Positions 11,287 to 18,001 of a stretch of 64,000 nucleotides of DNA are shown here, piece after piece (positions within the stretch are counted from its first letter, which is position 1; the number at the start of each line of letters is the position of its first letter). The DNA is from Rhodobacterales bacterium. GTDB taxonomy: Bacteria; Pseudomonadota; Alphaproteobacteria; Rhodobacterales; Rhodobacteraceae. The notes beneath the pieces were generated by a model. It was not told the origin of the DNA. It saw only the letters and a list, made by a program, of their open reading frames with translations, and searched no databases. A program made the position numbers and the translations under genes. The stretch lies in assembly GCA_002748285.1 (NCBI GenBank), contig PDSA01000029.1:119109-183108 (forward strand). The letters run 5' to 3'.

Positions 11287-11415
11287 TGGCGGGCGGCCCG
11301 GCTGCTGCGGTGCAAATGGCCGTTGGGCCGGGCTGTGTTTTTTGGGCCACTCATCGCCTTTGGCGCATTGCAGACCGGCTTTACACGACTCAGCGGCAAA
11401 CCTATACCAAACGGG

Positions 11416-11714
11416 CTTTGGTCCTGCCGGTTACGCGGTGGGTGAATAGGGAATACGGTGCGCTCTATAGCCAAACGACACAATTCTGATTGTGCCTTTT
11501 GGCTATGGGTCTCTGATTTGACGCTGATGCTTCGTGGATTTTGGGATCGAAATCTACTCCCGTCAGCTATACCGGATCAGATCTGATCGTTCAGGCAATT
11601 CCGTGACTGCCCCCGCAACTGTAAGCGGAGAGCAACGCCGAACAGATCCACTGCGCCCAAGGCGCGGGAAGGCCCGGCCGCGCATCGACCCGCAAGTCAG
11701 GAGACCTGCCAGAG
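11416..11714 (+). ncRNA. Cobalamin riboswitch with an expanded loop insertion
   Basis: 5' element GGTGAATAGGGAATACGGTGC (11441-11461); core CCGTGACTGCCCCCGCAACTGTAAGCGG (11601-11628); B12 box CCGCAAGTCAGGAGACCTGCC (11690-11710); P1 helix CUUUGG (11416-11421)/CCAGAG (11709-11714); hairpin CCUGCCG/CGGUGGG just 3' of P1; located upstream of btuB. Confidence 0.9.
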
Positions 11715-11826
11715 CGTTCACCCAGCCTGCATGCGGGGCGCGCGCAAGGCTACGGTCTGTCCGTTGTGGTGGCATTTCGCCGTGACCGGATGGGCTGCCT
11801 ATCTGGTTTTGACAATCCCAAATAGC

Positions 11827-11867: not shown

Positions 11868-13745
11868 ATGAATGCCCGTATTCTATCCACCAGTGCGCTT
11901 GTCTGTGTGCTGAGCGCTCCTGCCTTTGCGCAGGATGCAATCCCCCCCGCCGGTTACGCCGATCTGGGAACCATCATCCTTTCCGGCGGTCTGTCGCCGG
12001 TTGAGGCCGAACGCTATGGCCGCTCTGCCAGCGTCATCACCCGCCGCGATATTCAAGAGCGCGGCCTGACCACGGTTCAGGATGCCTTGCGGGCGGTTCC
12101 AGGCGTATCTGTCAATGGCTCAGGCAGCAGCTTTACCCAGGTGCGCATTCGCGGTGGCGAGGCCAACCACACGCTGATCCTGATCGACGGGGTGCCCGCC
12201 GCTGGCGGCGATGGGGAATATATCCTGACTGGCCTTGAGGTTTCGAATATCGAGCGCATCGAGGTTCTGCGTGGGCCACAATCGGTCTATTATGGCTCGA
12301 ATGCGTCTTCTGGTGTGGTTAACATCATCACCCAGCGCGGTGCGTCTGGCCGTGAACTCCGCGGCACGATCGAGGCCGGCGGCGGCACCACGGCCACCGC
12401 GTTTTTGTCGTCGCGTAATGATCGCGGCGGGCTGTCCTTGTCGCTGTCGCATATGGATGATCGGGGCTATGATTATTCCGGCAGCGATGGCGAACGCGAT
12501 GGCATCACCCGCAGCACCGCGATTCTGTCGGGCGATTATGCGCTCAATGACGACCTCAAGCTGGGCTTTACCCTGCGCCGTTCCAACGAAGACTATGACT
12601 ATGACAGCACCAGCTGGGCCGCGCTGGTCCCAAGCGACTATGTGGTGGACGACCCAACCCAGACCTCGGAACGGGACGAGATGACGGCCTCGGTCTATGC
12701 CGAATATTTCATGATGGATCGCCGCATGTCGCACCGGCTGGCCTATAACGTCACCGATAACGAGCAATCCTATAATGGCGGCGCTCCGACCGAAACCGAA
12801 ACCCGGGCGCTGAACTACCGGTTGAGCTGGGCGATGGATGGGCGCGATGTGGATGGCACCGATCATCTGCTGAACCTGCTGATCGATTCATCCGAAGATT
12901 CCAGCAGCTCGAACCCGATCTATAACCGCGAAAGCACCTCTTACGCGCTGGAATATCGCGGCACTTTTGCCGAGCGGCTGAATGTGCAGCTGGGCGTGCG
13001 CTATGATGACAATGACGTTTTCGAAGACATCACCGTCTGGAATGCAGCCGCGTCTTATCGCTTTGACAACGGGATACGGCTGCACGCTTCTGCTGGCACG
13101 GGGTCGGTCAACCCCAGCTATTTCGAGCTGTATGCAAGTGCCTGGGGCTATACCGGCAACCCCAATCTGGAGCCCGAGCGCAACCGCAGCTATGACATCG
13201 GGCTTGAGTTCCCGATCCTTGGGGATCGTGGCACGCTGGATGTGACCTATTTCAACGAAAAGCTGACCGATGAGATCACCTCGATTTCCACCGGGCCGGG
13301 CACCTTCACCTATATCAACCAGACCGGAGACAGCACCCGCGAGGGCGTCGAAATCACCGGTAAGCTGGCCGCGAATGATTGGTTGGATGTGCGGATGGGC
13401 TATACCTATCTGGAAGCGCGTAACCCCGATGGCAGCGTTGAAATCCGCCGTCCACGGCACGAGCTGTCGCTGGGGGCCACCATGGATGCGTTCAAAGGGC
13501 GGGGCTCGATTTCGGCCGATCTGCGGCATGTGTCGGGCAATTACGATACCCAGTTCTTTGGGGCTTATCCAACGCTGGAGCTGCCCTCTTTTACCACGGT
13601 TGACTTGTCAGCCCGTTACCGGCTGAATGACCGCGTAACGCTGACCGGGCGGGTTGTGAACCTGTTTGACACCGATGCAACCGATGTCTGGGGCTATGCC
13701 ACACGTCCGATGACGGCTTATGTCGGGCTGGAAGCCCGGTTCTGA
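11868..13745 (+). CDS. btuB: TonB-dependent vitamin B12 receptor
   Basis: Signal peptide; plug VITRRDIQERGLTTVQDALRAVPGVSVN...IRGGEANHTLILIDGVPA...ERIEVLRGPQSVYYGSNASSGVVNIIT; beta-barrel with C-terminal aromatic residue; downstream of a cobalamin riboswitch. Confidence 0.93.
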   Translation: MNARILSTSALVCVLSAPAFAQDAIPPAGYADLGTIILSGGLSPVEAERYGRSASVITRRDIQERGLTTVQDALRAVPGVSVNGSGSSFTQVRIRGGEANHTLILIDGVPAAGGDGEYILTGLEVSNIERIEVLRGPQSVYYGSNASSGVVNIITQRGASGRELRGTIEAGGGTTATAFLSSRNDRGGLSLSLSHMDDRGYDYSGSDGERDGITRSTAILSGDYALNDDLKLGFTLRRSNEDYDYDSTSWAALVPSDYVVDDPTQTSERDEMTASVYAEYFMMDRRMSHRLAYNVTDNEQSYNGGAPTETETRALNYRLSWAMDGRDVDGTDHLLNLLIDSSEDSSSSNPIYNRESTSYALEYRGTFAERLNVQLGVRYDDNDVFEDITVWNAAASYRFDNGIRLHASAGTGSVNPSYFELYASAWGYTGNPNLEPERNRSYDIGLEFPILGDRGTLDVTYFNEKLTDEITSISTGPGTFTYINQTGDSTREGVEITGKLAANDWLDVRMGYTYLEARNPDGSVEIRRPRHELSLGATMDAFKGRGSISADLRHVSGNYDTQFFGAYPTLELPSFTTVDLSARYRLNDRVTLTGRVVNLFDTDATDVWGYATRPMTAYVGLEARF

Positions 13746-13746
13746 C

Positions 13747-14616
13747 ATGGCTCTGGTCCGTTGCGTGACCAATGCACTGGCCGGGGCGGCGTTGGCCGTT
13801 GCCCCGGTTTTCGGGTGGGCGCAGACCAGCGCGCCCACCGAAACCGCCCCGATGCGGGTGGTGTCGATGAATCTTTGCACCGACCAGCTGGCGATGCTGC
13901 TGGCCGCGCCGGGGCAGTTGCTGTCGGTGTCTTATCTGGCATTTGACCCGATGGGCTCGGCCATGGCGGATGAGGCGAAGGCCTATCAGCGCAATCACGG
14001 TCTGGCCGAAGAAATCTATCTGCTGGAACCGGATCTGGTGATCGCCGGCAGTTTTTCGACCCGCGCCACGGTCGCCATGTTGCGCCGTCTGGGCCTGCCG
14101 GTGGCGGTGATGGAGCCCGCCTATTCGCTGGAGGATGTGCGCGCGCGTATCCTTGAGATGGGCGAGATTTTGCACCGGCAGGAGGCCGCCGCCGAGATGG
14201 TCGCCCAATATGACGCCGATCTGGCCCGTATCCGGCAGAATGTGCCGCAAACGCACCCGCTGGCCGCCCTCTATGCCGCGAATGGTTATACTTCGGGCGA
14301 TCGCTCACTCAGGGGCCAGATTCTGACGGCGGCGGGGTTTCGCAACGCCGCGGTCGAGGCCGGATTTCCGATGGGCGGTGTGTTCCCGCTCGAACTGCTG
14401 GCGCTTTCCGACCCGGATGCGCTGATTTTGGGGCGGCGCTATCCGGCGGCCTCGCGTTCAGAAGAGATTTTGGATCATCCGGTGGTGCAGGCGCTGGCCT
14501 CGAACCGGATGCAGGGCAGCGTCACCGACCGCGATTGGGTGTGTGGCACGCCTTATGTGCTGCGGGCGATCTCGGGGTTGGCGGCGCTGCATGATCAACC
14601 AAAGGAAGCCCAATGA
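13747..14616 (+). CDS. btuF: Cobalamin ABC transporter substrate-binding protein
   Basis: Periplasmic-binding fold MRVVSMNLCTDQLAMLLAAPGQLLSVSYLA...EPDLVIAGSFSTRATVAMLRRLG; operon context. Confidence 0.87.
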   Translation: MALVRCVTNALAGAALAVAPVFGWAQTSAPTETAPMRVVSMNLCTDQLAMLLAAPGQLLSVSYLAFDPMGSAMADEAKAYQRNHGLAEEIYLLEPDLVIAGSFSTRATVAMLRRLGLPVAVMEPAYSLEDVRARILEMGEILHRQEAAAEMVAQYDADLARIRQNVPQTHPLAALYAANGYTSGDRSLRGQILTAAGFRNAAVEAGFPMGGVFPLELLALSDPDALILGRRYPAASRSEEILDHPVVQALASNRMQGSVTDRDWVCGTPYVLRAISGLAALHDQPKEAQ

Positions 14617-15596
14617 GCCGACTGACCGCCCTCCTCACCACATTGCTGCTGATCCTGCTGGTGGCCTCACTGCTGATCGGCCCGGCGGGGGTGCCGATGC
14701 GCGACAGCTTGAACGCGCTGTTTCACGACACCGGCACGCCAATGACGCTGGTGATGCGCGAAATCCGCCTGCCCCGTGCGCTGTTGGCGGCGCTGGTGGG
14801 GGCCGGGCTGGGGCTGTCGGGGGCGGCGATGCAGGGCTATTTGCGCAATCCGCTGGCCGATCCGGGGTTGATCGGGGTATCGGCCTCGGCCGCCTTCGGG
14901 GCGGTGCTGTCGATCCAGACCGGGCTGGCGGCGGCATTTGCGCTCAGCCTGCCGTTGTCGGCTTTGGGCGGAGCGCTGATCGGAGTGTTTCTGGTGCTGC
15001 TGTTGGCCGGGCCGCGAGGGTCTTCGATCACGCTGATCCTGGCGGGCGTTGCGGTGTCGTCGCTGGCCGGGGCGCTGACTGCACTGGCGCTGAACCTGTC
15101 GCCCAACCCGTTTGCCGCCAATGAAATCGTGTTCTGGATGATGGGCTCGCTGGCGGATCGCTCGATGGATCATTTGTGGCTGGCGCTGCCCTTCATCGCT
15201 CTGGGCGCGGTGATGCTGGCGGCTCTGGGTCGTGGGCTGGACGCCCTGACATTGGGCGAGGACGCCGCCGAAGCAATGGGCATCAGCCTGCCCCGCTTGC
15301 GGCTGATGCTGGTGCTGGGGGTGGCCTCGATCGTGGGCGCGTCAACGGCGGTGGCCGGAGCCATCGGCTTTATCGGTCTGGTGGTGCCGCATATCCTGCG
15401 CCCAATGGTGCGGGCGCGGCCCTCGGCGTTGCTGTGGAGCTCGGCCCTTGGTGGCGCAATCCTGCTGCTGGCCGCCGATATCGTGGTGCGGGTGGTGCTG
15501 CCGGCCCGCGACCTGAAACTGGGCGTGGTCACGGCGCTGATCGGCGCACCGCTGTTTTTGCACCTGATCTACAAAACCCGGAGGCAGAGTCCATGA
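14613..15596 (+). CDS. btuC: FecCD-family cobalamin ABC transporter permease
   Basis: LPRALLAALVGAGLGLSGAAMQGYLRNPLADPGLIGVSASAAFGAVL...GAIGFIGLVVPHILR. Confidence 0.93.
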   Translation: MSRLTALLTTLLLILLVASLLIGPAGVPMRDSLNALFHDTGTPMTLVMREIRLPRALLAALVGAGLGLSGAAMQGYLRNPLADPGLIGVSASAAFGAVLSIQTGLAAAFALSLPLSALGGALIGVFLVLLLAGPRGSSITLILAGVAVSSLAGALTALALNLSPNPFAANEIVFWMMGSLADRSMDHLWLALPFIALGAVMLAALGRGLDALTLGEDAAEAMGISLPRLRLMLVLGVASIVGASTAVAGAIGFIGLVVPHILRPMVRARPSALLWSSALGGAILLLAADIVVRVVLPARDLKLGVVTALIGAPLFLHLIYKTRRQSP

Positions 15597-16351
15597 CCCT
15601 GCTAACCGCCTCAGCCCTGAGCGTCACCCGCGGCAACCGCCCGATCCTGCATGATGTCAGCATGAAGATTGACACCGGCGAGGTGGTCGGGCTGATCGGC
15701 CCAAACGGTGCGGGCAAAACCACCCTGATGCGCGCCGCTCTTGGCCTGATCCCCGGCGAAGGCCACAGCAGCCTGGTCGCGCTCAGCGCCCGTGATCGCG
15801 CCAAGGCCGTGGCCTGGTTGCCGCAGGCGCGTGAACTGGCTTGGCCGGTGGATGTGGAGACCGTGGTTGCACTGGGGCGGTTGCCGCATTTGGCGATGGG
15901 GCAGACTCCGGGGCTTAAGGACCGCGCTGCGATTGAAAGCGCCCTCAACGACATGTCCCTGACCGAAATGCGTCGCCGCGCCGTCACGCAGCTATCGGGG
16001 GGCGAACAGGCCCGGGTGCTGATCGCCCGCACCTTGGCGCAGGAAACGCCGCTGGTGGTGGCGGATGAGCCTATCGCCGGGCTGGATCCGGCGCATCAGA
16101 TCGCCACGATGCAGATTTTTCAGAGTCTTGCGGCGCGGGGGCAATCGGTGCTGGTGTCGCTGCATGATCTGGGTCTGGCGGTGCGCCATTGTTCGCGGCT
16201 GATCCTGCTGTCCGAGGGGCGCATCATGGCCGATGGCCCGGCGGATGAGGTGTTGTCGCCGGACAATCTGAGCGCCCATTTCGGCATCACCGCGCATTTT
16301 GAAACCGGCACCAAAGGCCCGATCTTTCAACCGCTGACCGTGCTGGAATGA
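15593..16351 (+). CDS. btuD: Cobalamin ABC transporter ATP-binding protein
   Basis: GLIGPNGAGKTTLMRAALGL (Walker A), LSGGEQARVLIARTLAQ, VVADEPIAGLDPAHQ. Confidence 0.92.
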   Translation: MTLLTASALSVTRGNRPILHDVSMKIDTGEVVGLIGPNGAGKTTLMRAALGLIPGEGHSSLVALSARDRAKAVAWLPQARELAWPVDVETVVALGRLPHLAMGQTPGLKDRAAIESALNDMSLTEMRRRAVTQLSGGEQARVLIARTLAQETPLVVADEPIAGLDPAHQIATMQIFQSLAARGQSVLVSLHDLGLAVRHCSRLILLSEGRIMADGPADEVLSPDNLSAHFGITAHFETGTKGPIFQPLTVLE

Positions 16352-17001
16352 GCCCGCGCCTGACCCTTACCCGCCCTTGGCTTGAGATGCGGCTGACCCG
16401 GCCCATGCTGGTCCTGAGCTGGACCCTGAACGCGCCGGGGTTCACCCACACGGATCGTTTGCTCTGGCGCGAGGTGCGCAACGCCGATCTGCCCCCTGAT
16501 CTGGATGTCGTCGCATGGCTGCAAGACGAACTGGACAGGCGCGGGGATGGCAGCGTGCCCTGTCTTCTGACCTCGTGCAACATCGCCCGTTTCGTGCAGA
16601 ACCGCGCTGAAATCGAGGGGATCCACGCCCATGCCGCCGTCACGCTGGGCCTGTCCAATGGCGAGCGCATCGGCACCCGCATGGCCCGCGATCCCGCCGC
16701 CTGGGGGACGATCAACATCGCGGTGGAATGTTCACTGCCGCTGGCTCAATCGGCGCTGCTGGAAGGGATCAGCATCATTGCTCAGGCCCGTACCGCCGCC
16801 CTGATCGACCACGCCCCGCACATCGCCACCGGACAAATCACCGGCACCGGCACCGACTGCATTGCTCTGGCCGCGCCCGAAGGGGCCGAGCGTTATGCCG
16901 GTTTGCACACCCCACAGGCCGAAGCCATCGGCCGCGCCGTCTATGATGCCGTTGCCCAAGCCACGCGCGACTGGAGAAAGGATACCAAACATGCCCCTTG
17001 A
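16348..17001 (+). CDS. cbiZ: Adenosylcobinamide amidohydrolase CbiZ
   Basis: LSWTLNAPGF...PCLLTSCNI...AAVTLGLSNGERIG...GTINIAVECSLPLAQSALLEGISIIAQARTAAL...ATGQITGTGTDCIALAAP. Confidence 0.9.
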   Translation: MSPRLTLTRPWLEMRLTRPMLVLSWTLNAPGFTHTDRLLWREVRNADLPPDLDVVAWLQDELDRRGDGSVPCLLTSCNIARFVQNRAEIEGIHAHAAVTLGLSNGERIGTRMARDPAAWGTINIAVECSLPLAQSALLEGISIIAQARTAALIDHAPHIATGQITGTGTDCIALAAPEGAERYAGLHTPQAEAIGRAVYDAVAQATRDWRKDTKHAP

Positions 17002-18001
17002 AACATTGCTGCAACAGGCGCTCACTGATCCTGAAACCGGCTGGAACATGGGCTCTTTCGGCGCGATTGCCGAATTTCACCATGTCGCCGGTGATCCGAT
17101 GCCTACTCCGCCGGGGCCGCTGACTCAGGTTACAACACGCGGCGGGGTGCGGATCGACCGGCTTGAGGGGGTGCGGCCCGTCGCCTGGGAGATGCTCAGC
17201 CCGAAAGCGCATCGCTGGTCGCAGGGCATTTCGCTGTGCCTGCCCAAAGAAGAGGCCGCGATGCATAAACGCCCGGTTCTGACGGCGCTTGGCCCCGACA
17301 GCGGTGCGATCCGCCCCGAGGACCGCGCCGCCGAGCTGTTCGATATGGGGCTGGCCCAGCATCAGGTGGATTTCTGCATCCGCACCGCCGACCCGGAATT
17401 GCGCGCCCTGCTGCACGCGCAAAACGGGCGCTCGCTGTTTGAGATCGACAACCCTGCGATGGGCGCGATCCTCAAGGCGCATCCGGCGCGGGTGGCTCTG
17501 ACCCGGGTCGGGCGGGTTGAAGTCTATCAGATGATCGGTGGCCCCGATACCGGTGGCAAATCGCCCGAGGGGCCGCACACCCATGTTTTGCCGAAATTGC
17601 TGCGCTCTGGTCGGACGCATTCGGCCAATACGCCGATCCCAAAGGGCTGGGTGCCGTGCTGTAGTCTGCACCCGGAAAACCCGGTGATTGATCGGATGGG
17701 GGCCGACAAGGTGCCGAACCGCGCTGCCTATGAGCAGTTCCAGAGCTATCTGGCATGGTGGGGCATCCCCGAATATCTCGCGGCCAAAGCCGTTGTGAAC
17801 ACCGCGCTGGCCGAAGGGCGCGGGCCGGAGCATGTGGCCGAGCCCTCAACCCGTCTGGGCCGTACCGGCCTGCGCACGGCGCTGCGGCAAGCCCAGAGGT
17901 TCCAGTCTGATGCTCCGAGTTTAGGCGCATGGGTGGCGGCGTTTGACAAAGCCGCCGGGGACGGCGCGGCGGTGGATACGCATGAAGAGATGCACCAATA
18001 G
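16991..18001 (+). CDS. Uncharacterised conserved-looking protein co-operonic with cbiZ
   Basis: 336 aa, no signal peptide or TM, ATG overlaps cbiZ by 11 bp (MPLETLLQQALTDPETGWNMGSFGAIAEFHHVAGDP...); contains GPHTHVLPKLL and PCCSLHPENP. Confidence 0.85.
   Translation: MPLETLLQQALTDPETGWNMGSFGAIAEFHHVAGDPMPTPPGPLTQVTTRGGVRIDRLEGVRPVAWEMLSPKAHRWSQGISLCLPKEEAAMHKRPVLTALGPDSGAIRPEDRAAELFDMGLAQHQVDFCIRTADPELRALLHAQNGRSLFEIDNPAMGAILKAHPARVALTRVGRVEVYQMIGGPDTGGKSPEGPHTHVLPKLLRSGRTHSANTPIPKGWVPCCSLHPENPVIDRMGADKVPNRAAYEQFQSYLAWWGIPEYLAAKAVVNTALAEGRGPEHVAEPSTRLGRTGLRTALRQAQRFQSDAPSLGAWVAAFDKAAGDGAAVDTHEEMHQ

Follow-up and report, generated by a model that had tools for sequence, protein, structure and literature searches.

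The stretch of DNA analysed here (the window, 64,000 nucleotides) belongs to a marine-type Rhodobacteraceae bacterium and carries a cobalamin riboswitch that precedes a B12-uptake operon. A cmscan search matches the Rfam family RF00174 (Cobalamin) end to end at 11402–11727 on the forward strand, with a score of 112.8 bits against a gathering threshold of 31.5 bits, an E-value of 1.8e-27, and model positions 1–189 of 189 aligned; it is the sole Rfam match within the window. The element is an adenosylcobalamin-type aptamer with one large insertion of 135 nt in the P4 loop (11462–11596), bordered in the alignment by UGC up to 11461 and by AAUUCCG from 11597. The 5′ part (11402–11461, forward strand) contains P1, P2 (CCUGCCG/CGGUGGG), the P3 strand, the 5′ strand of P4, and the start of the P4 T-loop (GGUGC). 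The 3′ part (11597–11727, forward strand) contains the rest of the L4 T-loop, the 3′ strand of P4, P5/L5 (GCCCCCGC), P6 and the following helices, the B12 box region, and the 3′ strand of P1. All conserved core boxes of the aptamer are present in the alignment. The original prediction had described this locus as a cobalamin aptamer with an insert of about 135 nt in the P4 loop, intact rather than decayed, and the covariance model agrees on both counts: the two halves fall in a single high-scoring match, and the conserved boxes are kept.

Directly downstream of the aptamer, a hairpin at 11728–11750 (forward strand) exposes the loop GCGGGG, which is complementary to CCCCGC of L5, and a G-rich hairpin occupies the same place in orthologous btuB leaders. 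This candidate P13/L13 hairpin could act as the L13 partner in an L5–L13 kissing loop. The leader 3′ of it resembles the leaders of ten btuB orthologues, and a riboswitch is found upstream of btuB in 10 of the 10 orthologues tested. The regulated gene (11868–13745, forward strand) encodes a BtuB-like TonB-dependent receptor of 625 aa with Plug and TonB_dep_Rec_b-barrel domains. The remainder of the B12 uptake and salvage operon (13720–17001, forward strand) encodes, according to Pfam, BtuF-like (Peripla_BP_2), BtuC-like (FecCD), and BtuD-like (ABC_tran) proteins and CbiZ, so that the order after the riboswitch is btuB-btuF-btuC-btuD-cbiZ. A DUF6925 protein is encoded at 16958–18001 of the window, directly 3′ of cbiZ.

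The larger part of the insertion, 11466–11571 (forward strand), is a full-length copy of a dispersed, MITE-like repeat of 106 bp, TATAGCC...GCTATA, which has TA at both ends and is 95% identical to the family consensus. It is composed of a 42-bp palindromic unit (11466–11507, hairpin 1), found at other places of the genome on its own, and a 64-bp 3′ unit (11508–11571) that forms hairpin 2 (GCTGATG..GTGGATTTT../..AAATCTAC..CGTCAGC); both units are given on the forward strand. The terminal inverted repeat of the whole 106-bp unit, TATAGC/GCTATA, is perfect over only 6 bp, and a longer inverted repeat (16 of 18 positions) closes the 42-bp unit rather than the full one. The 135-nt insertion as a whole folds with −55.3 kcal/mol, compared to −33.9 kcal/mol for shuffled sequences (z = −5.4, with none of 200 shuffles reaching the natural value). 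No promoter or terminator was found inside it. An assembly artefact behind the arrangement is unlikely, because the repeat stands between the two halves of one riboswitch in a contig of 183 kb and an ordinary read should be longer than the repeat.

When the riboswitch DNA is used as a query, 11466–11571 returns further copies in its own genome with 88–93% identity. That genome gives 39 matches to the insert; it contains 14 full-length and about 20 partial copies of the repeat, which are mostly intergenic. The 14 full-length copies give a 106-bp alignment with a mean column identity of 87% and have unrelated flanks. Among the 196 relatives searched, the only other carriers are G161, a member of another Rhodobacteraceae genus with about 30 full-length copies (87–96% identity), and G005, from the same genus as the genome of the window, with six diverged copies; the repeat is missing from the other 193. 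The family has no match in plasmid records. The three genomes together, nearly all of it from two of them, yield 37 distinct full-length copies with unrelated flanks and nearly uniform ends (TATAGC at the start, GCTATA at the finish). Nearly all of these have TA at both ends, and none has a direct repeat outside TATA..TATA. The dispersed copies, uniform ends, unrelated flanks, mostly intergenic location, and lone 42-bp unit characterise the repeat as a MITE with a TA target, apparently derived from an IS630-type element. TATAG ends and a TA target are also characteristic of the Correia elements of Neisseria.

A possible source of the transposase is present in the same genome, in the form of two IS630-family (DDE_3) transposase genes, both at contig ends (L117 in C11 and L118 in C35). 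The two elements are 94% alike across the assembled part, and in both the contig stops at one and the same poly-T tract, before the far end of the element is reached. Their similarity starts at most 4 bp from the end TATAGCCAAACGACTCAA; the C11 copy has this end in intact form, and the C35 copy reads TGTGGCC at that place. The comparison with the MITE covers this one IS end, and 17 of its 18 positions agree with the MITE end TATAGCCAAACGACACAA. The MITE-rich G161 holds a broken copy of the same IS, 87% identical, and another genome (G110) has two copies of a related IS with TATAGTC..GACTATA ends. Since the ends are shared and IS and MITE co-occur, the IS630 transposase presumably mobilised the MITE in trans. 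At the catalytic glutamate motif the two elements differ, with LNPIK in C11 and PIE in C35.

The 29 bases of the insertion that lie outside the repeat belong to the native L4 hairpin of the riboswitch. The 5′ remnant (GCTC, 11462–11465, forward strand) lies outside the sharp boundary of the repeat, and the 3′ remnant (11572–11596, forward strand), which is missing from the other repeat copies, includes the palindrome GATCAGATCTGATC (11575–11588) as its terminal stem-loop. When rejoined as GCTC-TA-CCGGATCAGATCTGATCGTTCAGGC, the native L4 folds to a hairpin with this palindrome at its tip. The positions given in the original prediction for the palindrome and for a hairpin at 11467–11506 are borne out, but the palindrome had been counted as part of the insert; as a component of the mobile element it is ruled out by its absence from the other copies. 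The search of relatives with the insert separates it into a 106-bp part dispersed in the own genome, G161, and G005, and the 29 native bases.

Comparison with about 60 RF00174 loci of relatives shows what the native loop should look like. The distance from the P4 GG to the P5 box is 13–49 nt in the relatives, mostly 23–40 nt, rather than the few nucleotides that had been assumed to separate the aptamer halves normally. In the present riboswitch this distance is 148 nt, or 44 nt minus the repeat, which falls inside the range of the relatives. A hairpin of 10–36 nt is usual in orthologous and paralogous riboswitches at the exact point of the insert, in line with the description of the P4 T-loop as a variable-insertion point with a variable hairpin (Barrick & Breaker 2007, PMC2258182). 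The riboswitch spans 326 nt, and those of the relatives span at most 238 nt among the matches listed. Without the MITE, with 104 bp taken out and one TA kept, the element is 222 nt long, compared to 220–223 nt for three sister riboswitches in the same genome. A TA duplication at the locus is consistent with these data but not proven, because no empty-site allele of the riboswitch locus was found; the genus-mates are without an orthologous btuB.

We thus arrive at a reading to which we assign a probability of roughly 0.92, namely that a standard cobalamin riboswitch of the btuB-btuF-btuC-btuD-cbiZ operon was hit by a 106-bp IS630-type MITE at a TA in its native L4. The non-autonomous MITE would have been moved in trans by the IS630 transposase and inserted at this TA. 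The self-folding RNA would then project outwards at the P4 T-loop, in effect as the usual L4 hairpin on a larger scale, the aptamer would keep its cobalamin binding, and the L5–L13 pairing and the downstream leader would repress the operon under ample B12. Judged from the MITE copy in the riboswitch, which has five differences from the family consensus, three of them private substitutions, the insertion is unlikely to be very recent.

Two other accounts of what the insert is have to be compared with the MITE insertion. That it is simply a naturally long L4 hairpin, with no mobile element, draws on the variability of the L4 length noted above, and is refuted for 106 of the 135 nt, which recur at other places in dozens of copies that are 78–97% identical and share sharply defined boundaries; the probability of this account is practically nil. 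The original prediction offered a second sensory module among its options, which would be a regulatory RNA domain working with the aptamer. The insert is indeed strongly structured, and when the copies are compared, both partners have changed in 6 of the 30 predicted pairs. However, its stems are accounted for by the palindromic ends, the covariation term comes out slightly unfavourable, at +0.6, and the insert matches no Rfam family in cmscan and is absent from the other btuB leaders examined. Because the same sequence recurs at many unrelated intergenic places as a dispersed repeat, we reject the second sensor as very improbable. The small mobile insert, another of the three options raised originally, is what the 106 nt turn out to be.

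What the MITE does to the switch is a separate matter. Constrained folding gives an aptamer-formation cost of 17.9 kcal/mol with the MITE, 18.5 kcal/mol with the flanks joined at the TA, and 21.7 ± 2.8 kcal/mol with shuffled MITE sequences, 5 of 100 of which fold as low as the natural one. The absolute costs are crude, as nearest-neighbour folding models are for the cobalamin aptamer, and by this crude test the MITE is folding-neutral, costing no more than its absence. The riboswitch probably still functions, in cobalamin binding and in operon repression, considering that the core, the candidate L13, and the downstream leader are conserved and that constrained folding predicts no added cost. 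The opposite outcome, in which the MITE broke the switch and left btuB constitutively on or off, is doubtful. A tripled L4 could slow co-transcriptional folding, and the full aptamer is not seen in the free MFE of the whole element; yet the insertion site is a documented point of variable insertion, the constrained folds show no extra cost, and the aptamer core is without decay, with all conserved boxes intact, although the MITE copy has had time to gain its private substitutions. It is also conceivable, but rather unlikely, that the MITE hairpins form an RNase III-type processing site, such that the leader would be cut in L4 and the stability of the mRNA changed. RNase III is known to cut transcripts containing Correia elements in Neisseria (reviewed in PMC10969869), and the predicted transcript fold has long stems here as well, but there are mismatches within hairpin 1 and an interruption in hairpin 2. 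Also unlikely is a co-option of the MITE, whose hairpins might add a layer of control, e.g., if the leader were cut by a ribonuclease or folded more slowly, and shift the B12 response of the operon relative to the three sister riboswitches.

The riboswitch class, the insertion point, and the type of MITE are all of known kinds. Compared to the ordinary RF00174 riboswitch with its variable P4 T-loop hairpin (Barrick & Breaker 2007, PMC2258182), the present one has the same core, architecture, gene context, and tolerant position, and differs in that the extra RNA amounts to 135 nt, 106 of which are a recognisable mobile repeat. The closest analogue of the repeat is RUP of Streptococcus pneumoniae, a 107-bp repeat with terminal inverted repeats like those of IS630-Spn1 (PMC3049150); the two are likened by description, on the basis of their size, their short interspersed nature, and the resemblance of their ends to an IS630-family element of the own genome. 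In contrast to RUP, which comes from an unrelated organism, one copy of the present repeat sits inside a riboswitch aptamer. The Correia elements are likewise structured MITEs in leaders (PMC10969869), again likened by description and from an unrelated organism. Among riboswitch leaders that contain a mobile repeat and seem to keep their regulation, the closest precedent found is the one with a BOX element in the pneumococcal trp operon (PMC3049150). The BOX element, however, lies between two T-box riboswitches, whereas the 106-bp repeat lies in the loop of a single aptamer. A search of the open-licence literature turned up no previous case of a MITE within the aptamer of a riboswitch.

The source of the variable insertions that riboswitches carry at a few permitted sites is seldom seen. 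Here it is plainly visible, as a transposon-derived repeat in exactly the permitted loop. The locus is also a natural experiment on the amount of foreign RNA that the loop of an aptamer tolerates, and the genome itself offers three uninterrupted sister riboswitches for comparison. If the co-option were true, a new peripheral domain of a riboswitch would have been caught arising from a transposon.

Some further observations concern the repeat family itself. A second, degenerate MITE copy is located at 2813–2897 of the window on the reverse strand, with a 3′ half that is 80% identical and a 14-bp arm match. Two loci of the same genome, L067 (C7) and L069 (C55), carry variant copies with a longer, near-perfect hairpin at the end of the second half (ACGCTGATGCTTCGTGGATTT...AAAATCCACGAAGCAT...), which suggests that the repeat is present there in a rearranged or ancestral form. 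Finally, G161 is rich in the MITE (loci L104–L168) while, among the genus-mates tested for the genome of the window, it is absent or present only as diverged copies, and its abundance there may reflect horizontal transfer or shared recent activity.
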